A stretch of 64,000 nt of DNA from an uncultured Gelidibacter sp. GTDB lineage: Bacteria; Bacteroidota; Bacteroidia; Flavobacteriales; Flavobacteriaceae. Position numbers and translations under genes: made by a program. Below the pieces are notes generated by a model, which saw only the letters and a list, made by a program, of their open reading frames with translations, searched no databases and had not been told where the DNA came from. Shown one piece after another: positions 23,915 through 40,328 of the stretch; the stretch's first letter is position 1, and each line of letters begins with the position of its first letter. Location: the NCBI RefSeq assembly GCF_947500795.1, contig NZ_CANMTE010000006.1, positions 62,001 through 126,000 on the forward strand, read 5' to 3'.

Positions 23915-23915
23915 C
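23902..23915 (+). repeat. Left attachment site (attL) within tRNA-Asp
   Basis: CCCGTCCAGACCGC, the 3' end of tRNA-Asp, is repeated exactly and in the same orientation at 38867-38880. The tRNA stays intact at this end. An integrase gene lies 325 bases further in. Confidence 0.85.
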
Positions 23916-23956: not shown

Positions 23957-24240
23957 GGCGCTTTAAAGAAGTTGTGTTGTTTTATCTAAATGAAAGTTTA
24001 GGTAAACGTAGTGATACCAAAGCAATTTGGTATTCCGATGAGAAGCTTTCCTTTTCTGTTTATAACAGAATCGGGATGCTTTTTTGTTTTAGGGGTGGTT
24101 TGTGAATTCTTCAGAAAAATCATCAATAAGCCATCAAAAAGGGGTATAATTCGGGGACACTCCAAAATTCAAAAGGGGACAACGTATTTGTCTCAAAATC
24201 AACAAAATAGAATATTTAAAATTTATAAAAACTAATACTT

Positions 24241-25452
24241 ATGCAAGTAAATAGGGTGACCATTTTATATGTCATATATAAGAGCAGAAAAAGGAAAGAT
24301 GGTTGTACTTCTCTTAATTGTAGAATTACCTATCAAAACAAAAGAAAAGAGTTTGCTACAGGATATTATTTAAAAGCCCAAAATTGGGATAATAAAAACC
24401 AAGTAGTTAAGCCAACAGAAACAGAACACAACTTTTTAAATACACAGTTAAGCCTGATTAAGACACAAATTAATCAGGCTTTTTTATTGCTACAGGTTAA
24501 TGAAATTACTTTTGATGTAGATGATATCTTTAGGAAATATACAGGAGAGGAGGTTAAGCCTGATGTTGGGATTTATGAGGTGTACACATTATTCTTGAAG
24601 TATTTACAGAAATTAATTAATAAGGAGTTGAATGAAGACACGTATCTGAAATATGTTACATATGGTAAACATCTAAAAGAATTTATCAAATGGAAATATA
24701 ACTCTAGGGATGTAAAAATATCATCTGTTAAAAGTAGTTTTATTGAGCATTACGAGTATTATCTCAAGACAGAGAAGGGTTTTGCTCAGGTAACCTTGAA
24801 TAAGGTTATTCAGAGGTTCAGAAGGTCTATTAAATATGCAATTTCTGAGGATTACTTAACTAAAGACCCATTCATGTTATACAAGGCGAGAAGAGTGAAG
24901 AAAGAGGTTGTATATCTGTCACAAGCAGAACTTTTAAAGTTAGAGAATCAGACCTTTGATATTAACAGAATACAACAGATTAAAGACATGTTTGTATTTT
25001 GTTGTTATACTGGTTTAGCCTTTAAGGAAATGATTGGATTGACTAAGAAGGATGTTATATTGGAATTTGATGGTAATCTATGGATTAATGTGCATAGAGT
25101 CAAAACTTCAAGAAGTTATAAAGTGCCTTTAATGCCACAGGCAAAGAATATTATGGGGAGTTACCATAATGATGATTCAGACTTTGTTTTTCCGAGGATA
25201 TCAAATCCTAAATTCAATGCCTACTTAAAGGAGATTGCAGATGTTGTTGGGATTAAAATAAACCTTACACATCATATTGCTAGAAAAACCTTTGCTACAA
25301 CTGTACTTCTTTATAATGATGTTCCTATGGAAGTTGTTTCTAAGCTTCTTGGACATAGTAAAATGCAAACTACGCAAGAGCATTATGGAGAGATAGTGCA
25401 AAGGAAGATAAGTGAAGAGATGATTAAATTAAATAATAAGTTTAGGAAATAG
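24241..25452 (+). CDS. Tyrosine recombinase/integrase of island 1
   Basis: A 403-residue phage-integrase-family recombinase of the Bacteroidota conjugative-transposon type. It has an N-terminal arm-binding domain (1-95), a SAM-like core-binding domain and a C-terminal catalytic domain. The catalytic HxxR is in HHIARKTFATT (near 345), the GHSK box follows, and the nucleophile Tyr is in QEHYGEI (about 382). The first catalytic Arg position (CYTGLAFKEM) holds no Arg, as in IntDOT. Its place next to attL makes it the likely enzyme for insertion into tRNA-Asp. Confidence 0.92.
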   Translation: MQVNRVTILYVIYKSRKRKDGCTSLNCRITYQNKRKEFATGYYLKAQNWDNKNQVVKPTETEHNFLNTQLSLIKTQINQAFLLLQVNEITFDVDDIFRKYTGEEVKPDVGIYEVYTLFLKYLQKLINKELNEDTYLKYVTYGKHLKEFIKWKYNSRDVKISSVKSSFIEHYEYYLKTEKGFAQVTLNKVIQRFRRSIKYAISEDYLTKDPFMLYKARRVKKEVVYLSQAELLKLENQTFDINRIQQIKDMFVFCCYTGLAFKEMIGLTKKDVILEFDGNLWINVHRVKTSRSYKVPLMPQAKNIMGSYHNDDSDFVFPRISNPKFNAYLKEIADVVGIKINLTHHIARKTFATTVLLYNDVPMEVVSKLLGHSKMQTTQEHYGEIVQRKISEEMIKLNNKFRK

Positions 25453-25459
25453 ATGTAAG

Positions 25460-25500
25460 AATTAACTGTGTTATAGTATTTTTATAGCACAGTTAATTTT
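25460..25500 (+). terminator. Terminator after the island 1 integrase
   Basis: AATTAACTGTG pairs with CACAGTTAATT, with an inner TATA/TATA pairing, followed by TTTT. It ends only seven bases before the next start codon, so the helicase gene may be read by run-through or from a promoter within this stretch. Confidence 0.75.
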
Positions 25501-25506
25501 AATCAT

Positions 25507-27999
25507 ATGGATTTACCAAACGAATATTTTAGAGATTTCCCAATTGAATTTAAACAAATAAATCCAGAAGATTTTCCTGAATTTGATGTTGCAGAAAAGG
25601 TTAAGCTTGAACATGAAAATGGATTTATTGGAGAGTCGTTTATTAACAACATTAATATTCATGAGTCTAATACAGTGGTTCTTAATTGTGGCGTTGGTAG
25701 TGGAAAGACAACTGCTATTATAAAAGCTGTTAAACAGTTCTATGACAATGATGAGTATGTTATTTTTATTGCATCACCTTTTGTTAGCTTAGTCCAACAG
25801 TATTTTTTAGATGTACAAGAAAAAGCGCATATTCCCCAGAATCAAATTTACAGGAATGAATGGATTGGAGAGCGTTCTGATATAGAATATATTGACAAAA
25901 GAGTACATATTGTCACAATCAATACTTTATTGGGTAATCCTGGAGAGGACAGCATAGTTAACTCTAGTTCTAAAAGAAAATATCTAAACGAAATGGTTGA
26001 TTACTGTGAAATAAATGGTAAGAAAGTTGTATTTATTTTTGATGAAATCCATGATTCAATTCATAATTTTAAAGAGAAGTTTATCTTTAACTTATGGAAA
26101 TGGCATAATGTTATTCACAAGAATTTTGTGATAAGTGCTACCTATAGCGAGGCATCGAAAGTTGTCATAGAATATTTGGCAGAGCTTACTCACAACAAAA
26201 TTAGAATTCTTGAGTCAGAAAGAACGAGAATACCAGAAAGGTTGAGTGAATTGCATCTGTACTATGATAATGCTAAAAAGTATACCAATGATAATGGGAA
26301 TTTAGTCGATATAGTAGAAGATGTTTTAAGTAGAGGTCTAGAAATTGATATACTGTGTTTTTCCAAGAAGTTATGTGATGGAATTGTTTCAAATAAAGAG
26401 GAAGGTGCAGGCAAATTACTATTTAATAAGTACGGGGAAGATATTAATAATTGCACTTCTGGATTGGATGATAATACTAGAGTGAATCGAGATGTCCATG
26501 AAAATAGGTATAATAAAGATAAATGTAATATTGGCACAAATTTCAAGTCAGGTGTTAGTATTGAGAATGACAATCATGCTTTTATTTTAATTTTCCCTCC
26601 TATTTCAGCTAGAGGAGATTTTAGAAATTCATATGGTATTTTTAGCGGAGGTATCAACAGTATTGTACAATCTCTAGCAAGAAAAAGGAAAAAAGGAGAA
26701 ATTCATATTTTGCTACCTAAACCAACCAAGTTTAATTTTAATTCCTTCCCATTTAATGAATCTCAGAAATTGGTTTTTAAGAGATATTTTGAACCTATTG
26801 AATATCAAAAAGTCAAAGCGAGTTCAGGCAATGGAATAAGAGATAATAAAACTATTGATTATGTGCCTTTGGAACATCAAAATGAACTCATAAGTAAATT
26901 TTATTATGATGAGTTTAAAGCGAATGTTCAAAGTAGTATTTCTCATATACAAAGCATAAAGGAATCAAGGCTTAATAAAACTAGGTTAGAGTTTCCAGAA
27001 TTTAAATTATTCAAACTTGAAGATGGAGAAAAGTATCTTGCAGATAATTATAAATTCTTCGGTTCAGACCTATCTGGTTATTTAAGTTATGGTGCAGTTA
27101 CGAATCAATTTGTAAATTGTGATTTGGTATCAACAAATTGGAAGCCCACTCAGAGCTTCAAAATTGATAAGATGCAATATGGTTTTGAAAAGTTCTATAA
27201 AAATTACTTTAATGAAGATTGGTTTTACTCGTTAAAAAACAATGTGTCTGATTTATATATTTATCATGAAATTAGAAATGAAATTTTCAATAACTATAAT
27301 ATAAAGCTCTGTGACGCAGAAGGTAATAGCAAATTTGTAAAACCTTTCCAAGACAAACTGTTTGAACAACAATTGATTGCCTTCGCCCAAAGAAAATTAT
27401 TTAGTAACAATACGGGTTTTGTGAACCGATTTAAAGATAATGGTTATGTAATAGATGACGAATATTCTAGAGGAGATTATTTTCTGTCATGTATAGCAAC
27501 TGCGCATTCATTAAATGATAGGGTGGATTTAGATGAGGATACCAGACTTTTAGTCGAGGCATATCTCAGTCTTGATTATTTCCGACTCAAATTGATTAAT
27601 AACATTTTAATTACTGAAGTAAAAAAACAGGAAATAAAATATATCCCTGTTTCAAATGAGAGTTTTTTAATGGATGAAGATATCCTAAGATTTATCTCTA
27701 TGTTGACCAATTTAATTAATAAAGACATTCTGATTAAGAATGATATTTTTAATTTCAAAAGAAGCTTTTCGGAGGGAGCTTCTGGAATGACCCAGTTGAA
27801 TTCATTTTATAAGTATTTGACCAATGATTTTTTCGTAACAAAAAATCGAAAAATTAATCGCGAGGGTTTGAAAGGGAATTTTAAAGTAATCATTAAAATA
27901 AAAGAGTTACCCAATGCGAATGATGTATTAGATTTTTTGACAAAGGCAACAATACTGTTGCCTGATGATTATATGCAAGCTGTAAATTGTATAGAATAA
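25507..27999 (+). CDS. Superfamily 2 helicase-like protein
   Basis: An 830-residue protein with helicase motifs in the first half: Walker A GVGSGKTT (62-69), Walker B/DEIH (179-182), SAT-like motif III (ISATYS, 209-214) and a motif VI-like QSLARKRKKG (388-397). The C-terminal half (about 430-830) has no motif I can name. The order and A/T-rich coding suggest an element-encoded replication or origin-unwinding protein, but that is inference. It precedes the Sak4-like and DUF3871 genes, and a terminator separates it from the integrase. Confidence 0.7.
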   Translation: MDLPNEYFRDFPIEFKQINPEDFPEFDVAEKVKLEHENGFIGESFINNINIHESNTVVLNCGVGSGKTTAIIKAVKQFYDNDEYVIFIASPFVSLVQQYFLDVQEKAHIPQNQIYRNEWIGERSDIEYIDKRVHIVTINTLLGNPGEDSIVNSSSKRKYLNEMVDYCEINGKKVVFIFDEIHDSIHNFKEKFIFNLWKWHNVIHKNFVISATYSEASKVVIEYLAELTHNKIRILESERTRIPERLSELHLYYDNAKKYTNDNGNLVDIVEDVLSRGLEIDILCFSKKLCDGIVSNKEEGAGKLLFNKYGEDINNCTSGLDDNTRVNRDVHENRYNKDKCNIGTNFKSGVSIENDNHAFILIFPPISARGDFRNSYGIFSGGINSIVQSLARKRKKGEIHILLPKPTKFNFNSFPFNESQKLVFKRYFEPIEYQKVKASSGNGIRDNKTIDYVPLEHQNELISKFYYDEFKANVQSSISHIQSIKESRLNKTRLEFPEFKLFKLEDGEKYLADNYKFFGSDLSGYLSYGAVTNQFVNCDLVSTNWKPTQSFKIDKMQYGFEKFYKNYFNEDWFYSLKNNVSDLYIYHEIRNEIFNNYNIKLCDAEGNSKFVKPFQDKLFEQQLIAFAQRKLFSNNTGFVNRFKDNGYVIDDEYSRGDYFLSCIATAHSLNDRVDLDEDTRLLVEAYLSLDYFRLKLINNILITEVKKQEIKYIPVSNESFLMDEDILRFISMLTNLINKDILIKNDIFNFKRSFSEGASGMTQLNSFYKYLTNDFFVTKNRKINREGLKGNFKVIIKIKELPNANDVLDFLTKATILLPDDYMQAVNCIE

Positions 28000-28082
28000 C
28001 AAAGTTAGGAATAGAGGATATTACATAGACTTCCAGTTTATGTAATTTACCTTATATAGACAGCCACATAAAGTGGAATTCA

Positions 28083-28113
28083 GGCTATGCTCAATTTGAG
28101 TGTAGCCTTTTTT
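28083..28113 (+). terminator. Terminator after the helicase-like gene
   Basis: GGCTA-TG-CTCAA pairs with TTGAG-TG-TAGCC around a single-base loop apex region (28083-28107), then TTTTTT. Confidence 0.7.
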
Positions 28114-28158
28114 ATTGGAATTGATTCAAACACATATTAACCTTAAAATTTATAAATA

Positions 28159-29028
28159 ATGAAATTAAGACAATCAGAACGTAAAAGAGCTAAGATAAAA
28201 TTAGCCTTACAAGGAAGTGCTGGAAGTGGTAAAACATATTCCAGTTTAATGTTGGCACAAGGACTTACAGGTAAGGACTTAACTAAAGTGGCTATAATAG
28301 ATACTGAAAATGGTTCAGCAGATTTGTATGCTCACTTAGGGCAATACAACGTGCTCACTTTAGAGCCTCCATTTACACCAGAAAAGTACATTCAAGCAAT
28401 TGATGTGTGTTTGAGGGCAAACATGGAGGTAATTATATTAGATTCTATATCTCAAGTATGGGATGAACTATTGGATTTTCACTCCAAATTGCCAGGTAAT
28501 AGTTTTACCAACTGGAATAAAGTAACTCCAAGGCAAAAAGCTTTCATGGATAAGATACTTCAAGCTCCTGCCCATATTATTGCAACCATGAGAACCAAAC
28601 AGGATTACGTGCTTCAACAAAAGGATGGAAAGTTTATACCTGAGAAAGTTGGACTTAAAGCCATTCAAAGAGATGGAGTAGATTATGAGTTTACTATAGT
28701 GTTTGACATAGATATCAAACATTTTGCTGTAGCAAGTAAGGACAGGACAAATCTGTTTTCTGGTAAACCTGAATTTACAATTAACACGTCAACAGGAAGA
28801 AAAATCTTGGATTGGTGTAACAGTGGTTCTAATCTGGAAGAAGCTAGAGTAAAGATTAAGGAATGCAAGGAATTGGAATCCTTAAGACAGCTTTATGCCC
28901 ATTATGGAAATTGGCGTGAAGAACTTGAATATGATTTCAAGATTCAAAAAGATACCATTGTATCAAAACAAACATTGTTAAACCCTAAAACCTTTAGTAC
29001 AAATGGAACTACAAGTCATAATGCCTAG
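28159..29028 (+). CDS. Sak4-like (RecA-related) phage-type ATPase
   Basis: A 289-residue ATP-binding protein. The Walker A is GSAGSGKT (19-26), preceded by a basic segment, and the Walker B is VIILDSISQVWDEL (near 94-107). IIATMRTKQDYV and a later GVDYEFTIVFDID stretch match the phage nucleotide-binding protein/Sak4 family, RecA-fold ATPases that promote single-strand annealing. It overlaps the DUF3871 gene by 26 bases, so they are co-translated. Confidence 0.78.
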   Translation: MKLRQSERKRAKIKLALQGSAGSGKTYSSLMLAQGLTGKDLTKVAIIDTENGSADLYAHLGQYNVLTLEPPFTPEKYIQAIDVCLRANMEVIILDSISQVWDELLDFHSKLPGNSFTNWNKVTPRQKAFMDKILQAPAHIIATMRTKQDYVLQQKDGKFIPEKVGLKAIQRDGVDYEFTIVFDIDIKHFAVASKDRTNLFSGKPEFTINTSTGRKILDWCNSGSNLEEARVKIKECKELESLRQLYAHYGNWREELEYDFKIQKDTIVSKQTLLNPKTFSTNGTTSHNA

Positions 29029-30025
29029 GCAAGAATTACAATTAAGTCAAGTATCTCTAGATGTGAGAAAGGATAGTGCTTTTAACCTGTCTCAGAAGCC
29101 TTTATTCAAGCTTAAACCATTTATAGAAGCTAATACTATTGATATAGAGATACAGCATCTAAAACAGGATTGTGTCATTCCAGTTTTCTCAAAAGATAAT
29201 GAGAGGACTATAGCCCACCAAGAATTTATAGAATTAGCACAAGAATGTGCATATGAGGTATTTCCTAATCACATTTTTGATGCTCCAGAGATTAGGGTAA
29301 GTCATCAGATTAAAGGTAGGACTCCTTCTGCCATTAATAAATCTGTAAAAGAGCTTTTGGACCATGAGAAGACCATCTATTACGAAAGGATGGCTTTTAT
29401 TATGCGTATTCCAAGTATTACAGAAACAATAAATGGCAATGAGATAGCTTTGACCATTGGGGGAGTAAGGGCTTATAATCAAGAGAACTTATACTCAAAA
29501 AAGTCCTTTGAAAAGTTCAAGTTCTTTATAGGTTTTCAAAATTTGGTATGTTGTAATATGTGTGTTTCAAGTGATGGGTATGTGGAGGACTTGCGTGCTG
29601 ATAGTTATATTGGGATGAGGGCAAAACTATTAGAGGTTCTATATGCTTATCAAGCTGAAAACCATTTCAATAGTTTAAAGCAATTATCTTATGAAAATCT
29701 AACAGAACATCAATTTGCTCAGCTTATTGGAAAGTCAAGACTTTATAATTACTTACCTAAGAAGGATAAACTTGAAATTCCAGAATTGTTACTTAATGAT
29801 GGGCAGATTACCACTGTTGCCAAGGACTATTACCATGATGAAAGCTTTTGTAGAAATGATAATGGAGATATTAATCTATGGAGTGTTTTTAACCTGTTTA
29901 CACAAGCCAATAAGAGTTCTTATATAGATACCTTCTTGGATAGAAATGTCAACGCATTTGAGTTCTCAAGTGGGTTGGCTAAAACTCTCAATGGTGGTGG
30001 AGACTATCATTGGTTTTTGAGTTGA
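29003..30025 (+). CDS. DUF3871 family protein
   Basis: A 340-residue protein matching DUF3871, found on Bacteroidota mobile elements and of unknown function. Recognisable stretches are HQIKGRTPSAINK, the LTIGGVRAYNQENL segment and VCCNMCVSSDGY, which resemble phage-type DUF932 proteins. The first ATG (29003) overlaps the Sak4-like gene; a second at 29021 (MPRQELQL) is an equally good start. It ends the replication/recombination block of the island. Confidence 0.75.
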   Translation: MELQVIMPRQELQLSQVSLDVRKDSAFNLSQKPLFKLKPFIEANTIDIEIQHLKQDCVIPVFSKDNERTIAHQEFIELAQECAYEVFPNHIFDAPEIRVSHQIKGRTPSAINKSVKELLDHEKTIYYERMAFIMRIPSITETINGNEIALTIGGVRAYNQENLYSKKSFEKFKFFIGFQNLVCCNMCVSSDGYVEDLRADSYIGMRAKLLEVLYAYQAENHFNSLKQLSYENLTEHQFAQLIGKSRLYNYLPKKDKLEIPELLLNDGQITTVAKDYYHDESFCRNDNGDINLWSVFNLFTQANKSSYIDTFLDRNVNAFEFSSGLAKTLNGGGDYHWFLS

Positions 30026-30032
30026 GTGAAGC

Positions 30033-30068
30033 CCAATCTCTATTTAATTAGAGGTTGGTTTTTTTTTA
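30033..30068 (+). terminator. Terminator after the DUF3871 gene
   Basis: CCAATCTCT (30033-30041) pairs with AGAGGTTGG (30050-30058, one G-U pair), followed by a run of nine T. It overlaps the 3' end of the convergent membrane-protein gene. Confidence 0.75.
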
Positions 30069-30637
30069 TTATCAATAATTATAGAAATTAAGGCAATCCC
30101 TACAAGTCCTCCTACTAAATAGTACCAGTTGCTCTTTAACCATGAAATTATGATGTCTCCAAATAGGTAGTCAATAATGATGCATATTATCAGGGATACT
30201 GCTAATAGGATTAGAGATTTTTTTATGGTTAAGTCAATGGTTTTAAGTGCTTTTTCAAAAAACGCAATGAGGATTCCATAAAGTATAAAAGTGCCAACAA
30301 TAATTCTTAGTAGGGCTAAGGAAACAGATTCAATTTCGTCACTATAGAGAGACATGAAATAATAGAGAGCATAAATTATTGAACCATAAACTATAATTGC
30401 TAAAATTGTTACTGCCCCATCTTTCTCACTCTCATCTAATCCGATAGTTAGCCATTTTTTTGTCATTAGAAAAAGATAGTAAGATACGAGCGAGGCAATA
30501 AATAGGAAGAATAGAAAAGATAGGATGCTAAATATTGAACTAACTACAATTTCAAAATAATCACTAAAAAAGATAAGCCAAATTATAGAACCTACAACTA
30601 TAATTGACGTTAGAGATGCGAATATTTTATTTTTCAT
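30044..30637 (-). CDS. Six-helix membrane protein of unknown function
   Basis: A 197-residue very hydrophobic protein with about six membrane helices (roughly 7-24, 31-58, 77-97, 105-127, 140-162, 172-190) and a short basic C-terminus (NKKKPTSN). I recognise no family. It is transcribed in the same direction as the restriction-modification block, 157 bases behind it, and could be part of it or an independent cargo gene. Confidence 0.6.
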   Translation of the reverse strand: MKNKIFASLTSIIVVGSIIWLIFFSDYFEIVVSSIFSILSFLFFLFIASLVSYYLFLMTKKWLTIGLDESEKDGAVTILAIIVYGSIIYALYYFMSLYSDEIESVSLALLRIIVGTFILYGILIAFFEKALKTIDLTIKKSLILLAVSLIICIIIDYLFGDIIISWLKSNWYYLVGGLVGIALISIIIDNKKKPTSN

Positions 30638-30794
30638 TTTATTTCTTCACGTTTAAGTCCTGGGTGTTTAAGTGCCAAGAAATTATGGCTTTCATTTTTA
30701 TGAGTTTGGTGAAGCAAAAGTTTTTAAATTAAAAGAGATACTGGATTTTTTTGTTCTTATCTCTCACAATAAATAAGGTAGTTTTTATGTCTAT

Positions 30795-31775
30795 TCAAAA
30801 CATATTGTATTGACCCTCATCTGCCTCTTTTTGTTGTCTAATTTTCTTTCCTTCACCTGTTTCTATTGATTTATCATGTTCAAAATAACTGTTGACCCTT
30901 AAAACACTGTATGATTCTATTCTTTCATTTCCTTCATTGTCTATGACTTTAATAATATCAAGAAGACAATTAATTGAAGAACCATTTTTAAATTCAACTT
31001 TACCTGTTTGAACTAAAGTTTTAAACTCATTTGACTTCATGAAAAATGAAATGGGTTTAGAATTGTATAGACCTTTCCATTTGTATTTTCCTTTTTTTAA
31101 AACTGGTGAAATTATTTCAATAACTGCATCATCAATGGGTTCAGTGTCAATTTTGTCAGTCTCTAAAACATGCTTGTTGAAATCTTGTCTGATTACTATT
31201 AATTCTTTTGAAATAGGTTTCTTATTTATGTCCTCTAATAAAAAAGAAACACTGTGTACTTGATTATCTTTTCTTAATTCTTCATAGAAATTGGATTTTC
31301 TTTTTTTTATTTTATAGTTGTCTTCAACTTCCTGTATTTTAACAGTTAACTCTATTTTTTTTAATTTAATGTTTAGAGCTTTTTCTTCGTTACTTAGCTT
31401 TACCCCTTCAAGTTCTAACTGTTCTATCTGCTTCTTAATATCATCCTCAAATATTTTTTCAATTAAGATTTCAGTTGACTTAGTTAATAATACTGTAAGT
31501 GGAGTTGTTACTACCGCTGTAATTAGTGAAATACAAATCGCAGTTGAGTAAGTTAAATTCTTTCTTTCGTCTTTTCTGGTAAGCTTAAACCACCTTCTAA
31601 TGCCTCCTTCTGCTAAAGCTTCTGTTTCAATTATAATATTTATATTTAAAACATCACATATTTCTTTTATGAGGTAAAGAATCTCTGCTTCACTTTTGTT
31701 TTGTACTAGTGCATTCATTGAATGCGAATTATCATCTAAATAATAGTGTAACTCCAAAAAGTTAGTTTCTCTCAT
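30795..31775 (-). CDS. Membrane-anchored coiled-coil protein coupled to the restriction-modification enzyme
   Basis: A 326-residue protein I cannot name. It has a small alpha/beta N-terminal domain (about 5-62, with HYYLDDNSHSMNALVQNKSE and an EALAEGGIRRWF end), one membrane helix (74-97), a charged coiled coil (107-168) and a beta-rich C-terminal domain (170-300). The start is only two bases behind the stop of the type IIG-like enzyme, so the two are almost certainly translated together. An effector or regulator role in defence is inference. Confidence 0.65.
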   Translation of the reverse strand: MRETNFLELHYYLDDNSHSMNALVQNKSEAEILYLIKEICDVLNINIIIETEALAEGGIRRWFKLTRKDERKNLTYSTAICISLITAVVTTPLTVLLTKSTEILIEKIFEDDIKKQIEQLELEGVKLSNEEKALNIKLKKIELTVKIQEVEDNYKIKKRKSNFYEELRKDNQVHSVSFLLEDINKKPISKELIVIRQDFNKHVLETDKIDTEPIDDAVIEIISPVLKKGKYKWKGLYNSKPISFFMKSNEFKTLVQTGKVEFKNGSSINCLLDIIKVIDNEGNERIESYSVLRVNSYFEHDKSIETGEGKKIRQQKEADEGQYNMF

Positions 31776-31777
31776 AA

Positions 31778-34700
31778 TTAATTATTTTCTATAATAGTAA
31801 TTTCTTCTTTAGAGAGGTTATATAGCCCATAAACCATTTGGTCTATTTCTGAATCTGTTTGGTTTATTTGAGTTTGTAATGCAACAGCTTTTTGTTGCTC
31901 TACCAAAAAGTAATCTTCCCATTCTGCTTTTTGAGATAGAGAAAGGACTATTTTCTTCTTTTTGAGTTCTTTAAGGAAATCAGCATAGGTTAGTTCATAC
32001 CAGTTTTCCAATTTTTTACTTAGCTTATCAAGTTGTTCAAATTCTCTTTGAAGTGTTCTTTGGAATTTTTGTATTATAGAGAATAAAATCTTAGTTTGAT
32101 GCTGTTGTTTTTTTGAAATATTTTCAAAATTATAGCTACCCATTTTTTCAACAGGAATCCCAAAAGGTTCTAAATATTTTGTTTTAAAATAAAAATAACC
32201 CCCGCCATATTCTGAACTTGTATTTTTAATAAAATACCATAATAGTTTACTATTAAGTATTGGCAAAATAGAATTTGAAGTAAATCCTTCTTTTAATAAC
32301 ACTAAATACCCACCAGCATCAGCATATACATCTGTTTCTTTTTTTGTAAAACTTGGTAAGTTTTGTAATTGAGGTGTAATTATATAATCTTTTTCAAATA
32401 AATTTATTTCCCTTGCTCGATGTAAGGAATACCAAAAAGTAGGATTTGTTTTATACCTAACTTTTTTCTCCACTAAACTTTCTTTAAAATTTAAAAGATA
32501 ATCATTAGTTAAAGGAAATTTATCTCTAAATTCATCTGGTTCTAGTGGTACTGTTTTGTTTTTGCTATTTATTTTATGTGGATAGATTACATATTTATTA
32601 GATTTTAACGGTAGGTATCTTTTTATATCTTGCCCTTTTAATACTTCTTTTAAAATTGAAGATTCTAAAATTACATTTTCATTTAATTCTTTTGAAAATC
32701 CATAAAACAAATTATCTTTTATTTCTCCCTCCAGCATAAAAATGTCATCTCCTGTAGTAATAAGTCCCTGATAAATGCCCTCACAAATTTCTTTTAACTT
32801 TGTGCTATTGCTTATTTTGTCCATAATAGATTTACCTTCTACATTTTTTAAAATCCAAGGTTCTTTTGATAAGCTTTTATAATCTATTGTTTTAAATAAA
32901 ATCTCCTCTAAAATTTGTGTAGGGTCTATTTCAATAAATTTTATATTTTCATTTTCCTTTTTAAGATTTATAATACAAGTATATGTCGATGCATCATTAA
33001 ATACTATTTTTGAACCGAAATGTACTATTGAATCTACTGATTTATTTTTAACAAAGAACTCTCTAATTCCTACTCCAAACTCTGCAATTAAGAATTTATG
33101 AGGAAGAATGTATGAGACAACTCCATCTTCATTTATTAAATCATATGATTTTTCCATAAACAAAGCGTACAAATCATATTTTCCTGTAGCCGAGAGATAT
33201 TTTTTTTCTAAAAATATAGTCTGTTCAAAGTAAAACTCCTTTAAACTCTGAACCCTTACATAAGGCGGATTCCCAATAATCACATCAAAACCACCTTTAG
33301 CAAATATTTGAGGAAATTCTTGTTCCCAATTGAAAGCACTATCTCCTGCTACACTTACATCATCAATTAAGGAGTTTCCACATTTTATATTATCACTCAA
33401 ATCATTTAGCTTCCTATTGGGCTGGGCTGTTCTTAACCACAGGGATAATTTTGCTATCTGCACAGACTCTTCATTTAGGTCAACCCCAAAAAGGTTGTTT
33501 TCTAAGATGCTATTTTCAACATCACTTAATACAAAGGCATCTTTGTTATACTTGGCAGAGAGTTCATCAATGTATCTGTGTTCATTGATTAGAAAGTCAA
33601 GTGCTTGGTTTAAGAATGCTCCAGAACCACATGCAGGGTCACATATAGTTAGTTGTAACAGCCAATCTTTATAAAGGCTGAGATTATCCAATCTTTTTCT
33701 ACTTCTTTGCTTTGCTGGTTGGTATACTTCATCTGTAATGTCAAGTTCTACTTTCTTTTCCTCACAAAGTTTTCCAATTGTGTTTTCAACTATGTATTTG
33801 GTGATGTATTTAGGAGTATAAAACACACCATCTTTCTTTCTTTTAGTGTCTGCTTTATTAATAGTTTTTCCTTCTAATTGGGCTGTGATTTCATCCAATT
33901 CATTTAAGGAATTCTCAAAAATATGACCAAGGATATTTACATCTACTTCACTTTCAAAATCATACTCTGAAAGCTGATAGGAATGTTTGTAGAGTAGGTC
34001 ATCATCTATTTGAATGGTATCTAAAATTTCATCTGGTTTAAAGAGCCCGCCATTGTATGGAAAAACATTATATTGCTTTCCTTTAAACCCAGTGTTCAGA
34101 TACCCAAAGTATTTTTTAAACCTGTCATACAATGGAGTATAAGCATCAAGTTCTTTTAACTGTTTCCATTGTTTAAGAATTACTCTGACAGAATTGGGAG
34201 GTAACAGACTTCTATCTTCTGCAAAGAATAAAAACAAAAATCTATCTAAAAGCTTTTGAGATTTTTTGAAAAGCTCCAATGGCTCGAACTGAGGGTTTAG
34301 GACACAGAGATTTTGGAATAATTCTCTTTTAAATAGGGAATAGTCTTTATAGAGTTGTTTAGTGATTAATTCTTCCTGACTTAATGATTCTTCTTTGAGC
34401 TTTTTAGGAATGTTATTCTTTATGTTCTCATAGCCTAAACACAAATAGAGCAATTTGAAATCTTGCTCAGAAATTGTAAATAAGTTGAACTCTATATGTT
34501 CAATGGCATTATCAATATAAAATCTCAGCTTTTCAAAGTTAGAAGTAATAACATAAATGCATCCAGCTTGATTGTTCTTATATCCAAAAGCTTGTTCCTC
34601 TATTTTGCCTAAATCTGTTGTTCTAGTTCCTTTGAGTTCAATAACCCCAATAACCTTGTTCTTAACAATTATTCCTCCATCAGCTTTTTTGCTGTCTTTT

Positions 34701-34942
34701 ACATTTTTGAGTTCCGTGGTAAGATTAAAGTTAGGCTGTGGATTCAAAGTATAACCCAATATTTTCACAAAGAGCTCTCTTAAAAAGCCTTCTTGAAACT
34801 GCTCTTCTTTACTATTTCTTATGTTTTCCTGTATCTCTAGGTTATGGAAATATGCTTTAAATAATTCCCATTTTGACTCTATTTCTACTTTATCCTGAGA
34901 TTGGAGATACTTTGTTACAACTGTGTTTTGGAATAATGGCAT
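31778..34942 (-). CDS. Type IIG-like restriction-modification enzyme (Eco57I class)
   Basis: A 1054-residue single chain. A PD-(D/E)xK nuclease domain is at the N-terminus (Asp88 in KADGG, Glu102 and Lys104 in IELKG). An N6-adenine methyltransferase domain follows, with motif X GVFYTPKYIT (372-381), motif I DPACGSGAF (435-443) and motif IV NPPY (558-561). A TaqI-like specificity region and coiled-coil C-terminus complete it. Such enzymes cut and methylate with one target-recognition domain. The nuclease and methylase motifs look intact, so both activities are likely. The membrane coiled-coil gene follows with a two-base gap. Confidence 0.88.
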   Translation of the reverse strand: MPLFQNTVVTKYLQSQDKVEIESKWELFKAYFHNLEIQENIRNSKEEQFQEGFLRELFVKILGYTLNPQPNFNLTTELKNVKDSKKADGGIIVKNKVIGVIELKGTRTTDLGKIEEQAFGYKNNQAGCIYVITSNFEKLRFYIDNAIEHIEFNLFTISEQDFKLLYLCLGYENIKNNIPKKLKEESLSQEELITKQLYKDYSLFKRELFQNLCVLNPQFEPLELFKKSQKLLDRFLFLFFAEDRSLLPPNSVRVILKQWKQLKELDAYTPLYDRFKKYFGYLNTGFKGKQYNVFPYNGGLFKPDEILDTIQIDDDLLYKHSYQLSEYDFESEVDVNILGHIFENSLNELDEITAQLEGKTINKADTKRKKDGVFYTPKYITKYIVENTIGKLCEEKKVELDITDEVYQPAKQRSRKRLDNLSLYKDWLLQLTICDPACGSGAFLNQALDFLINEHRYIDELSAKYNKDAFVLSDVENSILENNLFGVDLNEESVQIAKLSLWLRTAQPNRKLNDLSDNIKCGNSLIDDVSVAGDSAFNWEQEFPQIFAKGGFDVIIGNPPYVRVQSLKEFYFEQTIFLEKKYLSATGKYDLYALFMEKSYDLINEDGVVSYILPHKFLIAEFGVGIREFFVKNKSVDSIVHFGSKIVFNDASTYTCIINLKKENENIKFIEIDPTQILEEILFKTIDYKSLSKEPWILKNVEGKSIMDKISNSTKLKEICEGIYQGLITTGDDIFMLEGEIKDNLFYGFSKELNENVILESSILKEVLKGQDIKRYLPLKSNKYVIYPHKINSKNKTVPLEPDEFRDKFPLTNDYLLNFKESLVEKKVRYKTNPTFWYSLHRAREINLFEKDYIITPQLQNLPSFTKKETDVYADAGGYLVLLKEGFTSNSILPILNSKLLWYFIKNTSSEYGGGYFYFKTKYLEPFGIPVEKMGSYNFENISKKQQHQTKILFSIIQKFQRTLQREFEQLDKLSKKLENWYELTYADFLKELKKKKIVLSLSQKAEWEDYFLVEQQKAVALQTQINQTDSEIDQMVYGLYNLSKEEITIIENN

Positions 34943-35237
34943 TAATGATTGTTTAGTTTGGACTCTAAATATACAAATGCCAAATGATTAAAGCTAAACA
35001 TAATAAACTATGAAAAATTTCTTTCAAAAAATTTCTAACATTGCAATATCACCCCCACGCACCCCTCCTCAAAGATATACCCCCACTTATTCTTGGTGGA
35101 AAGATTCCCCCGAGCCTATTTTAAAGAAATTTATTTTTTTGCGCACAGATTAGATTCAAGTTGATAGCTGTAGTCTTTTCCTGCGTAGAGATTGATTTCT
35201 TAAGTGGGTTCTTATCTCAACTCAAAAATTATATTTT

Positions 35238-35633
35238 ATGGTACGTATTATTAACTACAAAGAAAGAAAAGTAGAAGATGGTAGAATCTTCTTTGTCTTA
35301 GAACTACAAGGTGGTGTTGAAATGGTAAAAAGCCAACAGACCAACCAGTTTTATGCAACAGCTAAGAAAGCATTCATTACTTCAACATTTGATGAAGAAA
35401 CTTGTAAGGCTTTAATGGGAACTTCAATGCCTGGAAAGATTGAAAAAGAAGAATGCGAGGCATTTGAATACACAGTTAAAGAGACTGGGGAGGTTATAGT
35501 CCTTAATCACAGATATGTGTATATGCCAGAAACTCAAACTTCTTCTGATGAGGACAGAGCTATTCAGAACCTTTTTGCGGGAGAACATAGCTTTTCTCAA
35601 AATGGAGTTCATAAAGGAGAGCTTGTTGATTAA
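35238..35633 (+). CDS. Conserved element protein of unknown function
   Basis: A 131-residue acidic protein without a signal peptide or recognised motif. It begins MVRIINYKERK, is probably alpha/beta, and ends in a charged tail. It is divergent from the restriction-modification gene and precedes the RadC-like gene, a position small proteins of this kind often hold in Bacteroidota elements. The codon use is A/T-rich like that of its neighbours. Confidence 0.6.
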   Translation: MVRIINYKERKVEDGRIFFVLELQGGVEMVKSQQTNQFYATAKKAFITSTFDEETCKALMGTSMPGKIEKEECEAFEYTVKETGEVIVLNHRYVYMPETQTSSDEDRAIQNLFAGEHSFSQNGVHKGELVD

Positions 35634-35637
35634 TTAA

Positions 35638-35697
35638 AAACACGTCCTGAATTGTATTGTTACTTATATAGTATATCTGCAAAACGGGACGTGTTTA
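35638..35697 (+). promoter_or_regulatory. Long-loop inverted repeat between the unknown gene and the RadC-like gene
   Basis: AAACACGTCC (35638-35647) pairs exactly with GGACGTGTTT (35687-35696), separated by about 39 A/T-rich bases. It may be a terminator with a long loop or a protein-binding site. It is the only strong structure between these genes. Confidence 0.45.
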
Positions 35698-35710
35698 AAA
35701 TAAGACTATT

Positions 35711-36145
35711 ATGAAAGTATCAGAAATTAGAGTTTCCTATTCCAATGAGAATTCTGACAAAGTGAAAATACATGACAGTAATAGTGTTTATGACTTAGTA
35801 AAGTATCATTGGGATTACAATTTAATTGAACTTCAGGAGGAAGTGAAAGTTGTCCTACTTAACAGAGCTAATGTTGTCATTGGGATTTACGAACTTTCAA
35901 GAGGTGGACTTACAGCTAGTGTAGTGGATATAAAACTTATTTTAAGTGTAGCACTAAAAGCCCTTGCTTCAAGTATCGTGTTAATTCATAATCACCCTAG
36001 TGGGAACTTAAAAGCAAGTGAAGCTGATAAGAGTATTACTTCAAGGTTGAAGAAGGCTTGTGATATAGTAGATATAAGTTTACTTGACCATTTAATTATT
36101 TCAAAAGATGGCTATTTAAGCTTTAAGGATGAGGGATTGATTTGA
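35711..36145 (+). CDS. RadC-like JAB/MPN domain protein
   Basis: A 144-residue protein of the RadC family, common on Bacteroidota mobile elements. The JAMM metal site is complete: Glu in LQEEVKVV (about 43-44), His-x-His in LIHNHPSG (93-98) and Asp106 in ASEADKS. It lacks the helix-hairpin-helix N-terminal domain of chromosomal RadC. The function of the element-borne form, despite the name, is unsettled. Confidence 0.85.
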   Translation: MKVSEIRVSYSNENSDKVKIHDSNSVYDLVKYHWDYNLIELQEEVKVVLLNRANVVIGIYELSRGGLTASVVDIKLILSVALKALASSIVLIHNHPSGNLKASEADKSITSRLKKACDIVDISLLDHLIISKDGYLSFKDEGLI

Positions 36146-36439
36146 CCTTGCATTTTGGTGTTGTTACTATAGAGTAATCATGCCAATCTGTAAGGTTAGT
36201 CCCTTACTTCTTTTCCTAATATGGTAGAAATTTTTAAAATGCATCTACATGTGAGTGAGACCTTATTTCACATTTCAAAGGCTCTAGGTGTTTAGAAATT
36301 ATTATGGAGATATAATATTATAGCTAAATTGTGATGTTTTGGGTGCTTAAATTAAGGTTATATAAAGAGTTGCCTTTGATATATTCTTAAACCTAGAGAT
36401 ATAGCAGGTTTCAAACTCTAACTCATTAATAGCTAAATG

Positions 36440-36679
36440 TTACTCTTCTGAAATGTCTAAAAGTTCAGATAGTGAAATTTCAAGGGCTTCAGCTATTCTG
36501 TGTAAATTGTATAATGTGGGGTTGGTTCTGCCAGATTCAAGTCTTGATACATTGGTAGTATCAAAAACACCCTCAATTTTACCAGCTAAGTCAACTTGTG
36601 TAAAGCCTCTTTCTTCACGTAATTTCTGAATTCGTGCTCCCACAATTTTTTGTAAATCTGACTTTTCCAAACTTGGCAT
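36440..36679 (-). CDS. XRE-family helix-turn-helix regulator
   Basis: A 79-residue Cro/CI-type repressor. The helix-turn-helix runs from IQKLREERGFTQVDLAGKI to VSRLESGRTNPT, followed by a LHRIAEALEIS helix. I start it at the ATG at 36679; a TTG nine bases upstream is in frame but weaker. Two palindromes lie in front of it (36682-36693 and 36721-36734), so self-regulation and control of the divergent lipoprotein gene are likely. Confidence 0.85.
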   Translation of the reverse strand: MPSLEKSDLQKIVGARIQKLREERGFTQVDLAGKIEGVFDTTNVSRLESGRTNPTLYNLHRIAEALEISLSELLDISEE

Positions 36680-36681
36680 AT

Positions 36682-36693
36682 TTGACAAGTCAA
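36682..36693. promoter_or_regulatory. Palindrome at the start of the XRE gene
   Basis: TTGACAAGTCAA, an inverted repeat of TTGAC/GTCAA around AA, sits 3-14 bases upstream of the chosen ATG, where bound repressor would block initiation. Confidence 0.4.
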
Positions 36694-36720
36694 GGAAAGG
36701 TTTATATTTACGTTTTTTAA

Positions 36721-36734
36721 TGCCATATATGGCA
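36721..36734. promoter_or_regulatory. Perfect palindrome in the divergent XRE/lipoprotein region
   Basis: TGCCATATATGGCA is a perfect 14-base palindrome 42 bases from the XRE start and 35 bases from the lipoprotein start. Its size and place fit an operator for the adjacent XRE dimer. Confidence 0.5.
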
Positions 36735-36768
36735 AGTGTTAAAATATAAATTTTGAATGGTTTTTCAA

Positions 36769-37626
36769 ATGGAAAAAGTTATAATAATTCTAATTTTTTT
36801 AGTGACAGCTACAAGTTGTGTAAACAAGGATGGCATAAATGATTTAAAAGAATTGAATCTAAAAGGGAGAGTAAAATCAGTAGTGGAGATTCCCTACAAT
36901 GTGAAAGATAGTTTTGGGGAAATCACTAAAGGAAAAATAGCCCAAGGTTTTTTAGACCATAATATTGGCAGGACATTTAATCACAATGGCTATTTAATAG
37001 AACATAATAAATATAATGATTTAGGAGGAATTTACTACAGGACTATTTATTTGTATGATAAAAATTCGAATATAAATGAGTTAAATAGATATGATTCAGA
37101 TGGGAAACTTATTTTTAAATACAAATATATATATGATAATTATGGAAATGAAATAGAAGAAGCCCGTTATAATAATGAGGGTATTTTGATAAGTAAGTAT
37201 AAGCATGAATATGTTTATGATAAGAAAGGTAATAAAACAGAAATGCTTTTTTATGATAAAAAAGGAGTGTTTAAGAGTAAAGATGTCTTCTCGTATGATG
37301 ATAATGGGAATTTAATTGAATTTATTGAAGATTTTGAAGAAGGAAGTTTTAAGACTAAAAACTCATATAAATATAACGATAAAGGAAATCAGATAGAGTG
37401 GGTTAGCTATAAAGATGGAGGAGTTTTTGATTTTAAGTACATCAATAAATATGATTCGCATAGTAATATAATTAAGTCTACCTTATCAGAATATGATACA
37501 ATTCAAAAAACAGATTTTTCATATAAATATATCTTTGATGAAAAAAATAATTGGATTAGAGAAACTCAATACACAAATGGTTTTCCAAAAAAAATAACAG
37601 AAAGGACCATTGAATACTATGATTAA
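36769..37626 (+). CDS. Lipoprotein with YD-like repeats
   Basis: A 285-residue predicted lipoprotein. The signal peptide ends in the lipobox TATSC, and the body holds about six imperfect repeats of 25-30 residues with the pattern Y(D/N)xxGNxIE (YDNYGNEIE, YDKKGNKTE, YDDNGNLIE, YNDKGNQIE, YDSHSNIIK). This is the YD pattern of RHS-type beta folds. I use the ATG at 36769, since the one 12 bases upstream only adds MVFQ before the signal peptide. No RHS core or toxin domain is present. Function unknown. Confidence 0.7.
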   Translation: MEKVIIILIFLVTATSCVNKDGINDLKELNLKGRVKSVVEIPYNVKDSFGEITKGKIAQGFLDHNIGRTFNHNGYLIEHNKYNDLGGIYYRTIYLYDKNSNINELNRYDSDGKLIFKYKYIYDNYGNEIEEARYNNEGILISKYKHEYVYDKKGNKTEMLFYDKKGVFKSKDVFSYDDNGNLIEFIEDFEEGSFKTKNSYKYNDKGNQIEWVSYKDGGVFDFKYINKYDSHSNIIKSTLSEYDTIQKTDFSYKYIFDEKNNWIRETQYTNGFPKKITERTIEYYD

Positions 37627-37718
37627 AGAAATTATAGGGAAATCTACAAGTTAGATTGAACTAAAATACTAGGAAGAAATAGTTTTAAAAAATGAAAAGT
37701 TTATAAGGAAGAATTTTA

Positions 37719-38252
37719 ATGTCAAACAAGGAATATTATAAAGAACTAGCTTCTGAAGACTGCAAACCAATGAGTATCCACCATATCAATTGGTGGCTAT
37801 TGAAATATGAGGATTATTTTTATAAGGCTATATCAGAGTCTGAATGTGGTAAATGGAGCAAATGGATAAAGGACAATTCCATTCATGTATTTCCATGTGC
37901 CTGTGCTATTAGAGAACAAGACTGTATTTTCATTGAGCTATATCATCAGCTGTTAGAGGTTTCAGAATTAAATAAGAGAGAAGAGTTTTATTCAGAACAG
38001 TTGATTAGGTTCTCCAGTCATAAATTAAAGAAGGAATCTGTAATTGAATGGGTAAGAGACAATAGGTCTTATTATCAAGAAATCAGATATAAGCTAGAGT
38101 TTGATTCTGTTGGTATCGTAATAGATGTGAGAGTAAGTAATCATGATGACACATATAAAGTTATGCTAGTCAAGATAGATAAACATGATTTTATGCATGC
38201 AATAGAGTTCAAGAGGATTTTTGAGGAGATGGAATATTTGGACTTTATATAA
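37719..38252 (+). CDS. Unknown protein of island 1
   Basis: A 177-residue soluble protein with many aromatic and acidic residues and a HVFPCACAIREQDC stretch holding three cysteines. I recognise no family. It has a good terminator behind it (38318-38343), A/T-rich coding like its neighbours, and lies among the last genes before the right attachment site, a common place for variable cargo. Confidence 0.55.
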   Translation: MSNKEYYKELASEDCKPMSIHHINWWLLKYEDYFYKAISESECGKWSKWIKDNSIHVFPCACAIREQDCIFIELYHQLLEVSELNKREEFYSEQLIRFSSHKLKKESVIEWVRDNRSYYQEIRYKLEFDSVGIVIDVRVSNHDDTYKVMLVKIDKHDFMHAIEFKRIFEEMEYLDFI

Positions 38253-38317
38253 AGTTTATTATTCCAATTACAATGCATAGAGATATAATAGATGCGTTAC
38301 TAAGGTTTAACAGTTTG

Positions 38318-38343
38318 AACCACCTTTATCAAGGTGGTTTTTT
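38318..38343 (+). terminator. Terminator after the 37719-38252 gene
   Basis: AACCACCTT pairs with AAGGTGGTT around TATC and is followed by six T. Confidence 0.85.
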
Positions 38344-38357
38344 AATACCCAATAGTT

Positions 38358-38798
38358 ATGAAAAAAGATGAAATACCTTTTAAGATTGGGATGCAATATG
38401 AGAATTGGGAATTTTCCCTAGACATACTTCCAGACAGAATAAAGGGACTTGATAGTTATTTGAATGTTGATGAAACCTTAAATAGATTTCTTAATTTTAA
38501 TACAGATAGAACTGAACTAATATTTAGTTTAGATATTCTTGAAGGAGTAATACTCACTTTTGAAAATTGCAATACATCATTTTACAATAATTTAAAACAT
38601 AAGATTTTTTTATATGTAGAGTTATTTGAAGGTCTCAGTGAGGTGTTTTCTTCTGTATGTGAAGATTATTCAAATAGACTTGCACATTGTATCTTATATA
38701 TGAATAAAACTGTTTGTATATTGTATTGTAATAGGCTGATATTTCAAGCTTTGTTAGGTTCTCTAATTGGAAATAATAATATAAAAAGTGAGAAATAA
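38358..38798 (+). CDS. Unknown protein next to the right end of island 1
   Basis: A 146-residue protein with no recognised motif, no signal peptide and a hydrophobic C-terminal third (LYCNRLIFQALLGSLIG). It starts 15 bases behind a terminator and ends 69 bases before the attachment site. Likely a real but accessory gene. Confidence 0.5.
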   Translation: MKKDEIPFKIGMQYENWEFSLDILPDRIKGLDSYLNVDETLNRFLNFNTDRTELIFSLDILEGVILTFENCNTSFYNNLKHKIFLYVELFEGLSEVFSSVCEDYSNRLAHCILYMNKTVCILYCNRLIFQALLGSLIGNNNIKSEK

Positions 38799-38866
38799 GG
38801 GGGTGCAATAAAACAATTTTCATCTAAATGCCTGATAGATAATGGAGTGTAGAGTTTAAGATTAAA

Positions 38867-38880
38867 CCCGTCCAGACCGC
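38867..38880 (+). repeat. Right attachment site of island 1 / junction with element 2
   Basis: CCCGTCCAGACCGC is an exact copy of the tRNA-Asp 3' end. The sequence on either side differs from that at 23902, as expected for a junction. A second integrase gene starts 228 bases further on. Confidence 0.85.
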
Positions 38881-38907
38881 GGAAGAGGTAATCAAAAGCC
38901 TTCAAGA

Positions 38908-38937
38908 CCCTGTAAATCTTATGATTTACAGGGTTTT
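38908..38937 (+). terminator. Hairpin just inside element 2
   Basis: CCCTGTAAATC pairs perfectly with GATTTACAGGG around TTAT and is followed by TTTT. It probably shields the integrase from outside transcription. Confidence 0.8.
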
Positions 38938-38994
38938 ATGTTTTTAAGACTATCATAGAATTTGGTTCTATTTGATTCTGAAAGGTCACAAATC

Positions 38995-39051
38995 GTCAAC
39001 ATCTTTGATTATCGTAAACTATGTTGACAGAATGGTGTATCTTAACACCAT
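38995..39051. promoter_or_regulatory. Two inverted repeats upstream of the element 2 integrase
   Basis: GTCAACAT (38995-39002) faces ATGTTGAC (39021-39028), and ATGGTGT (39032-39038) faces ACACCAT (39045-39051). Both lie between the attachment site and the integrase start and could bind recombination or regulatory proteins. Confidence 0.4.
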
Positions 39052-39107
39052 ATTCTAGTTGATTTGACTTTCGTCTATACAATGTTTAACCATTAAAGAC
39101 GACAACT

Positions 39108-40328
39108 ATGAGATCTTCTTCAACATTTTCAGTACTGTTTTGGGCATACGGTAAACGCGCCGTAAATGACAAAGCAAACATTTACGTACGTATTACTTCA
39201 AATGGCCAACGTGTCAACATAAGTCTTAAAAAGAAAATCAATATTGCTACATGGGATGAAAAATCTCAAAGAGCAAAAGGGAAAGATAAGGATTCGCGAA
39301 TTTTAAATTTATATTTGAATGAAGTGCAATCAAAAATCTATCGGATTTATGAAGAACTAAAAACATCAGACAAACCATTTACCTCACAAATGATTAAGGC
39401 TAAATTTCTGGGAGAGGATAAAACGCACTTTACCTTTCGAGGTCTTATTGATTATTATAATAATAAGATGCAGCACAAACTGCACATAAATACGAGAGGC
39501 CAATATAAAACTAGCCAACAGTATATGTTACTGTATATTTCTGATGAATATAAGTTAACTGACTTGCCTCTTTCAGATTTGGATTATGGTTTTATAATTG
39601 GTTTTGAAAATTTCCTTCGTTCCTATACTCCAAAGATTGGCCAACCCAGAATCGGAAACAATACAGCAATGAAGCATATTAAGCGTTTACGAAGGATGGT
39701 CACGCTTGCCTACCGCATGGAATGGATTGATAGAGATCCGTTTGTCAATTTTAAAATGAAGATTGAAAAGAAAGAACGAAGCTTCCTTACAAAAGCAGAA
39801 CTACAAGCTGTTGAAGATTTACATTCCTCAATTGAACGTTTGGTTATTGTTCGAGATTTATTTGTTTTCAGTTGTTACACGGGCATATCCTATAGCGATA
39901 TCATAGAGTTGACAAGCAAAAACATTGTGGGTGGAATAGATGGTAATCCTTGGATAATGGCTACGAGAATAAAAACTGGCACTCCGTTTAAAATCCCGTT
40001 ATTAGCAAAGGCTGGATGTTTAATTGATAAATACAGTGAGCACGTAAGGACATGTGAAAGTGATAACCTTTTACCCAAATTGTCGAATCAAAAATTGAAC
40101 AGCTATCTGAAGGAGATAGCAGATCTCTGTGGCATCAAAAAGAATCTTACCTTTCACATGGCTCGACACACTTTTGCCACGACCGTGACCTTAAGTAATG
40201 GAGTTCCGATTGAAACAGTGTCTAAATTATTAGGCCACACAAAATTGGCAACAACCCAAATTTATGCACAAGTAGTGGAAAAAAAGGTAAGTCAGGATAT
40301 GGAGAAATTGAAATTGATACTGGGGTGA
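39108..40328 (+). CDS. Tyrosine recombinase/integrase of element 2
   Basis: A 406-residue integrase of the same class as that of island 1, with arm-binding, SAM-like and catalytic domains. The catalytic HxxR is in FHMARHTFATT (near 350), the GHTKLATTQIYAQV box carries the nucleophile Tyr (about 385), and the first Arg position (CYTGISYSDI) is again without Arg. It is clearly distinct in sequence from the island 1 enzyme. Its position beside a tRNA-Asp-derived repeat suggests it uses the same target. Confidence 0.92.
   Translation: MRSSSTFSVLFWAYGKRAVNDKANIYVRITSNGQRVNISLKKKINIATWDEKSQRAKGKDKDSRILNLYLNEVQSKIYRIYEELKTSDKPFTSQMIKAKFLGEDKTHFTFRGLIDYYNNKMQHKLHINTRGQYKTSQQYMLLYISDEYKLTDLPLSDLDYGFIIGFENFLRSYTPKIGQPRIGNNTAMKHIKRLRRMVTLAYRMEWIDRDPFVNFKMKIEKKERSFLTKAELQAVEDLHSSIERLVIVRDLFVFSCYTGISYSDIIELTSKNIVGGIDGNPWIMATRIKTGTPFKIPLLAKAGCLIDKYSEHVRTCESDNLLPKLSNQKLNSYLKEIADLCGIKKNLTFHMARHTFATTVTLSNGVPIETVSKLLGHTKLATTQIYAQVVEKKVSQDMEKLKLILG

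Follow-up and report, generated by a model that had tools for sequence, protein, structure and literature searches.

What role does a protein play when its gene lies two bases behind that of a restriction-modification enzyme? The question was raised by a locus of an uncultured Gelidibacter sp., which we analyzed within a window of 64,000 nucleotides (contig NZ_CANMTE010000006.1, positions 62,001 to 126,000); positions below are those of this whole stretch. Three genes on the minus strand are concerned, encoding a type IIG restriction-modification enzyme of 1054 amino acids (aa) at 31778-34942, a protein of 326 aa at 30795-31775, and a membrane protein of 197 aa at 30044-30637. A first-pass annotation had proposed that they form a defence module in which the enzyme is coupled to membrane partners. 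All three open reading frames (ORFs) were present, and the gap of 2 base pairs (bp) between the enzyme gene and the 326-aa gene was confirmed. The gap from the 326-aa gene to the 197-aa gene is 157 bp; the tight spacing is limited to the first two genes, and the 197-aa gene is separate. Our best explanation, to which we assign a probability of about 0.45, is that the 326-aa gene is an exchangeable, self-standing defence gene behind the restriction enzyme, whose product would dock on the sliding clamp and target DNA replication. The observations on which it is built are family membership, a slot exchanged between two island copies, an enrichment of restriction-modification genes beside homologues, and a near-invariant C-terminal tail; from these we infer clamp binding, action on replication, a membrane role, and phage defence.

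The enzyme itself raised little doubt. It matched the Pfam families Eco57I (expectation value [E], 1e-48), TaqI_C (E 2.4e-9), and N6_Mtase, and the PADLOC profile REase_MTase_IIG (PDLC03609) at E 1.4e-298. The motifs DPACGSGAFL and NPPY occur at residues 435 and 558, and IELKGT at residue 101 was read by eye as a PD-(D/E)xK-like nuclease motif. By sequence, a methyltransferase, a recognition domain, and a nuclease motif are combined in one chain, the arrangement of a type IIG enzyme, and the Pfam, PADLOC, and motif evidence concur with the earlier assignment. The target-recognition part comprises residues 561-960 (32063-33262, minus strand), as delimited by blastn junctions and windowed identity.

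The 326-aa protein matched the PADLOC profile PDC-S42 (PDLC05016) at E 1.3e-101, with residues 3-326 aligned to positions 7-317 of 320. PDC-S42 is a single-gene phage defence candidate in PADLOC, and with this full-length profile match the protein is assigned to an already catalogued, uncharacterised family of defence candidates. The library entry has no description; the clamp-like tail and the exchange slot behind type IIG enzymes are added by the present analysis. As the class is described in PMC12988326, PDC candidates were found via guilt-by-embedding and are unvalidated. A full-text literature search for "PDC-S42" found no paper and no experiment on the family, and searches combining clamp and phage defence named it in no title among the matches listed. 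The family is uncommon, with matches in 5 of the 395 genomes of a phylum sample and in 6 of 98 relatives (host counted). The profile also matched in the Bacillus subtilis control genome.

The locus lies on a stretch of about 15 kb that we read as an integrative island. It is bounded by 14-bp direct repeats on the plus strand, of which the left one (23902-23915) lies at the 3' end of a tRNA-Asp gene and is a candidate attachment site and the right one is at 38867-38880. Inside the left end is a tyrosine-recombinase-like integrase gene (24241-25452, plus strand; named by eye). The G+C content, taken in 2-kb steps, was 0.29 to 0.34 at 24001-40000 and 0.35 to 0.41 elsewhere in the window. Another genome of the genus (G008, copy L154) has the same backbone, with blastn identities of 93.5% at 28132-30585, 94.3% at 33257-36735, and 87.8% at 37773-38346; between these blocks, 240 bp at 31820-32059 aligned at 74%. 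The two enzymes are 98% identical at residues 1-420, 96% at 421-560, and 23% at 561-960, and in 80-residue windows identity was 93 to 100% over residues 1-560, 20 to 33% over 561-960, and 74% over 961-1040. In place of the 326-aa gene, PADLOC identified a ThsB-like gene (E 3.4e-77) and a PDC-M50A-like gene (E 1.6e-32; product membrane-like by eye), and no 326-aa homologue was found in the G008 stretch examined. Because G008 keeps the first 560 residues of the enzyme and combines them with another recognition domain and these two genes, we read the place behind the enzyme as an exchange slot for defence genes. Relative to L154, the recognition domain and the follower differ together across 30586-33256, with a sharp switch just past the NPPY motif. 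A same-genus contig (G006:C27) and a Gelidibacter maritimus contig (L084) each carry a homologue at the same coordinates and with the same tail.

The comparison also removed the 197-aa protein from the proposed module: positions 30044-30585 lie inside the block shared at 93.5%, and the gene is broken in the G008 copy. Six hydrophobic segments were found in the protein, in agreement with the six membrane helices annotated earlier, and library searches gave no convincing family match. We judge its gene to be island backbone, outside the cassette.

The followers of other type IIG enzymes were compared, with at most two enzyme candidates scored per listed genome. A homologue of the 326-aa protein was not found at 29 other type IIG loci (25 other genomes), 20 of which show a downstream ORF. 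A same-strand ORF lies within 50 bp at 12 of these 20 loci; the ORF at L131 resembles the remainder of the enzyme, and two of the 20 are on the opposite strand. Ten follower proteins were scanned with PADLOC, two each from L154 and L121 and one each from L122, L123, L125, L127, L135, and L142. Six matched, two of them weakly (L122 and L127), and four (both from L121, and those from L125 and L135) gave no match. The followers behind type IIG relatives included PDC-S18 (L123, 74 bp), PDC-S54 (L142, 41 bp), and, weakly, a HEPN-like protein (L122). The enzyme at L121 is 71% identical to that of the window overall and 68% identical in its recognition part, yet its follower is different. Conversely, L040 and L062 have a homologue of the 326-aa protein, split into two ORFs at L040, behind enzymes whose recognition parts are 21% and 25% identical to that of the window. 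A fixed link between recognition domain and follower was rejected on this comparison; follower and specificity are untied in these cases.

The neighbourhood of the family was surveyed from the side of the homologues. Contigs were scanned with one peptide pattern, and the best 80 of 146 relatives were kept. Together with other loci these made a neighbour set of 93, or 88 after removal of 5 repeats, of which 64 are flanked on each side by four genes or more; genes were called by a simple choice of the longest ORF. Type I or type IIG genes of the clusters defined here lie within four genes of the homologue at 13 of the 88 loci (9 of the 64 with at least four genes on both sides) and immediately adjoin it at 9 of 88. 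Restriction-modification-like genes accounted for 10 of 65 genes within 100 bp of homologues, 2 of 151 at 100 to 1000 bp, 10 of 249 at 1 to 3 kb, 3 of 344 at 3 to 6 kb, and 2 of 399 at 6 to 11 kb (5 of 743 at 3 to 11 kb); the seeds for these counts were the near restriction genes themselves, so that the counts at greater distance may lack genes of dissimilar restriction families. Five of the ten restriction-modification genes within 100 bp are type I specificity genes. The homologue lies directly behind a gene of the hsdS cluster at L024, L025, L032, L043, and L063 (Pfam confirmed selected members), and a gene of the hsdR cluster follows within three genes at L024, L032, L043, and L063. Among 95 same-strand genes within 400 bp, PADLOC assigned as many as 7 to a single type I or IIG family, and among 115 genes six positions away it assigned 3 to mad2, 2 to mad3, and 1 to each type I family shown; the comparison is a partly independent check in which 25 families were shown for each set and the sets were not strand-matched. 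Other neighbours of homologues were CHAT, SbcC-like, AAA_15, and Schlafen-type genes. In a Candidatus Ferrigenium genome, the upstream neighbour of a PDC-S42 homologue, at a distance of 38 bp, is a MutS gene (L058 7302-9935).

This pattern agrees with a self-standing gene that is sometimes embedded in restriction loci. The first-pass annotation had named, as grounds for giving up the module, homologues that are never linked to restriction or defence genes; we found that they are linked in part. Its idea of a defence module holds insofar as the protein belongs to a catalogued family of defence candidates and restriction-modification genes are concentrated beside homologues, and gives way where it saw a dedicated pair of enzyme and membrane protein rather than an exchangeable follower. 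A dedicated type IIG partnership is not supported: a type IIG gene adjoins the homologue at only 2 of the 88 independent loci, no homologue was found at the 29 other type IIG loci (20 of them with a downstream ORF), and the follower at L121 is different.

The most useful addition concerns the C terminus. The 326-aa protein ends in QYNMF (residues 322-326; 30798-30812, minus strand), a candidate beta-clamp-binding motif, and this clamp-like tail, near-invariant in the family, is a new finding of the present analysis. Tails were aligned in 72 rows including the window protein, leaving out homologues that were incomplete, split, of suspect start, or from annotated plasmid records, together with those from some further genomes. 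Q322 is conserved in 70 of 72 rows, F326 in 69, and leucine at position 325 in 56; residues 296-321 are less conserved (T306 in 65, G309 in 59, E305 in 57, and others in fewer). The five-residue form Q-x-x-[LMIF]-F was present in 56 tails; 12 have a six-residue form and 4 have neither, and the 68 tails with a motif have 0 to 12 residues after it. After shuffling, the five-residue form appeared on average in 0.68 of 72 tails and in 5 at most. Of 1046 other proteins of at least 150 aa in the same loci, 7 have the five-residue form and 17 the six-residue one. When representatives below 60% identity were taken, 47 of 51 retained one tail form. The beta-clamp-binding motif is given in PMC11139829 as Q-phi-x-[L/M]-[F/L] or Q-phi-x-[L/M]-x-[F/L], with QLxLF the strongest and position 2 tolerant, and for some known partners it is placed there in the C-terminal tail. 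QVSLF occurs at residue 1220 of the window's polymerase III alpha, whose gene was recognised by eye, and a Pfam search found one DnaN gene in the host. Judged from this resemblance, the tail probably binds the DNA sliding clamp. The conserved clamp-like tail suggests that the 326-aa protein acts on DNA replication and not as part of the restriction enzyme, of which it is probably not a subunit.

We propose that the integrative island carries, behind the gene of the restriction enzyme, a defence gene that is self-standing and can be exchanged. The 326-aa protein, associated with the membrane, would dock on the sliding clamp of the host (or of the phage) via its C-terminal Q-x-x-[L/M]-F peptide. 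Bound there, it would act on the replication machinery by competition or by capture. Once an infection had been sensed, phage replication or the whole cell would be stopped, backing up restriction. Action of a bacterial protein on the sliding clamp, with replicative stress as the result, has a precedent in the RipA toxin of Streptococcus pneumoniae, as described in PMC12795458; RipA belongs to a toxin-antitoxin system, and the parallel drawn here concerns its described action.

An AlphaFold2 model of the 326-aa protein (predicted local distance difference test, 91.8; predicted template-modelling score, 0.86) has an N-terminal beta-alpha-beta-beta domain, helices with breaks at residues 74-168, a beta-rich domain at 173-305, and a C-terminal helix at 307-325. 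The single hydrophobic segment is at residues 79-97 (31485-31541, minus strand), and such a segment with KD19 of at least 1.6 is found in 55 of the 72 family members. Model and segment agree with the layout annotated earlier, namely a small N-terminal domain, one membrane helix, and a beta-rich C-terminal domain. As to the annotated coiled coil, residues 97-173 gave weak, below-cut-off Pfam matches to families that we read as of coiled-coil type.

Several observations weigh against our explanation. By our own patterns, 37 of the 72 tails fit the published clamp consensus strictly (34 five-residue and 3 six-residue forms); 31, including QYNMF of the window, fit it only loosely, and 4 do not fit. 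In the AlphaFold2 model the tail is helical with high confidence (307-325), and the motif follows at a constant spacing, 16 residues in 60 of 68 tails measured; these features could mean that the tail serves the structure. The N side of the hydrophobic segment is the positively charged one (mean net charge, +1.75 versus -1.08 in the 72 members), and among the 55 members with a strong segment the N side is richer in lysine and arginine in 32 and poorer in 15. With this asymmetry, a simple single-pass topology puts the C terminus outside, away from the clamp. The predicted topology is a real objection to clamp docking; it would not apply to a helix that is peripheral or only dips into the membrane, nor to a soluble oligomer. 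In addition, at 75 of the 88 loci no gene of these type I or IIG clusters occurs within four genes of the homologue, and several copies adjoin housekeeping genes (KamA/DUF2148, isocitrate dehydrogenase, glucose/sorbosone dehydrogenase, and fucosidase).

The leading alternative, although we consider it unlikely, is that the tail is no clamp peptide but a conserved capping helix of the protein's own fold and that the protein is single-pass, with an extracytoplasmic C-terminal domain and a role in defence or in the envelope unrelated to replication. This alternative overlaps in part with the other explanations. The confident helix to residue 325, the constant spacing, and the charge asymmetry speak for it; against it, most residues between T306 and Q322 are charged or polar and most vary within the family, from 0 to 12 residues extend beyond the motif, and the six-residue form replaces the five-residue one in 12 of 72 tails, both forms being known for clamp peptides.

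A rather less likely alternative is a guard like PrrC, in which the 326-aa protein would stay silent while the enzyme works and would be released to stop the cell when a phage anti-restriction factor disables the enzyme. As described in PMC2610378, PrrC is likewise a second protein linked to a restriction system, of type I, and is activated by a phage anti-restriction factor. PrrC is there an anticodon nuclease with ABC ATPase motifs, whereas Pfam searches of the 326-aa protein up to E 1 gave three weak, below-cut-off matches, none to an ABC ATPase or anticodon nuclease. A guard is further opposed by the linkage at 13 of 88 loci and by the same follower behind unlike recognition parts and another follower behind a like one, so that no fixed silencing partner is seen. 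It is very unlikely that the protein is instead a restriction-modification helper, a clamp adaptor bringing the enzyme to the replication fork to methylate new DNA or cut replicating foreign DNA. The two-base gap in the window, the tight gaps behind hsdS and type IIG genes elsewhere, and the clamp-like tail would suit a helper, but the homologue was not found at the 29 other type IIG loci, 20 of which show a downstream ORF, and the 75 homologue loci noted above also oppose it. There is least to be said for a protein outside defence, a mobile or housekeeping clamp-associated protein merely travelling with restriction-modification genes, as the adjoining housekeeping genes might suggest, against which stand the concentration of restriction-modification genes within 100 bp and the Thoeris-like genes in the slot of the sister island.

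Searches for more distant relatives of the 326-aa protein gave leads of limited weight. Solved-structure sequence searches with the single protein and with the 72-row profile gave no match up to E 10, and Foldseek against the PDB gave no match at E 0.001 or better; weak hits of OB-fold and ferredoxin-like type were set aside. Foldseek against viral models gave four matches at E 0.001 or better, one of them a DUF6575 protein (E 4.4e-7; template-modelling scores, 0.41 and 0.37; root-mean-square deviation, 9.2). The DUF6575 domain is named as a defence component, with one protein among the anti-phage systems treated in PMC9519451. Kinship with DUF6575 was not supported by sequence: hhalign gave a probability of 0.2% against four DUF6575 sequences and Pfam gave no match. 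The fold likeness is a weak lead on which we do not rely. Another viral fold match came from phage Pipsqueaks, a mere control where PMC6426596 mentions it. NCBIfam NF053583 (LAPAL, putative phage structural protein) has a C-terminal beta domain related to that of the 326-aa protein (E 3.3e-15; hhalign against one member, probability 63.5%, E 6.8e-5). The 326-aa protein scores 56.3 bits, below the curated cut-off of 60 for membership, and the match is limited to residues 133-295. A full-text literature search for "LAPAL motif" found no paper. A LAPAL-family protein at L107 (1471-2388, minus strand), whose C-terminal beta domain is related, likewise has a clamp-motif-like ending, SQKELF. Phage records searched by tblastn gave no match for the 326-aa protein or for one DUF6575 and one LAPAL-family query, and viral contigs gave none for the single 326-aa protein; searched with the alignment, viral contigs gave 3 relatives. 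Plasmid records gave 4 matches.

The island also carries, at 25507-36145, genes named by eye for an 830-aa helicase-like protein, a RecA-like ATPase, a DUF932-like protein, and a RadC-like protein. Just beyond the right repeat there is another integrase-like gene (39108-40328), and beside it an apparent siderophore-interacting-protein gene, likewise named by eye, is split into two ORFs (40367-40609 and 40619-41134, minus strand).

For the family as a whole, we tentatively suggest that PDC-S42 may consist of membrane-associated, clamp-docking defence proteins that block or report phage replication and serve as interchangeable cargo directly behind type I and type IIG specificity parts. If the tail binds the clamp, an unexplained catalogued family of defence candidates would gain a mechanism directed at the replisome that can be tested directly, and defence genes that back up restriction could be sought in the slot that follows restriction specificity domains.

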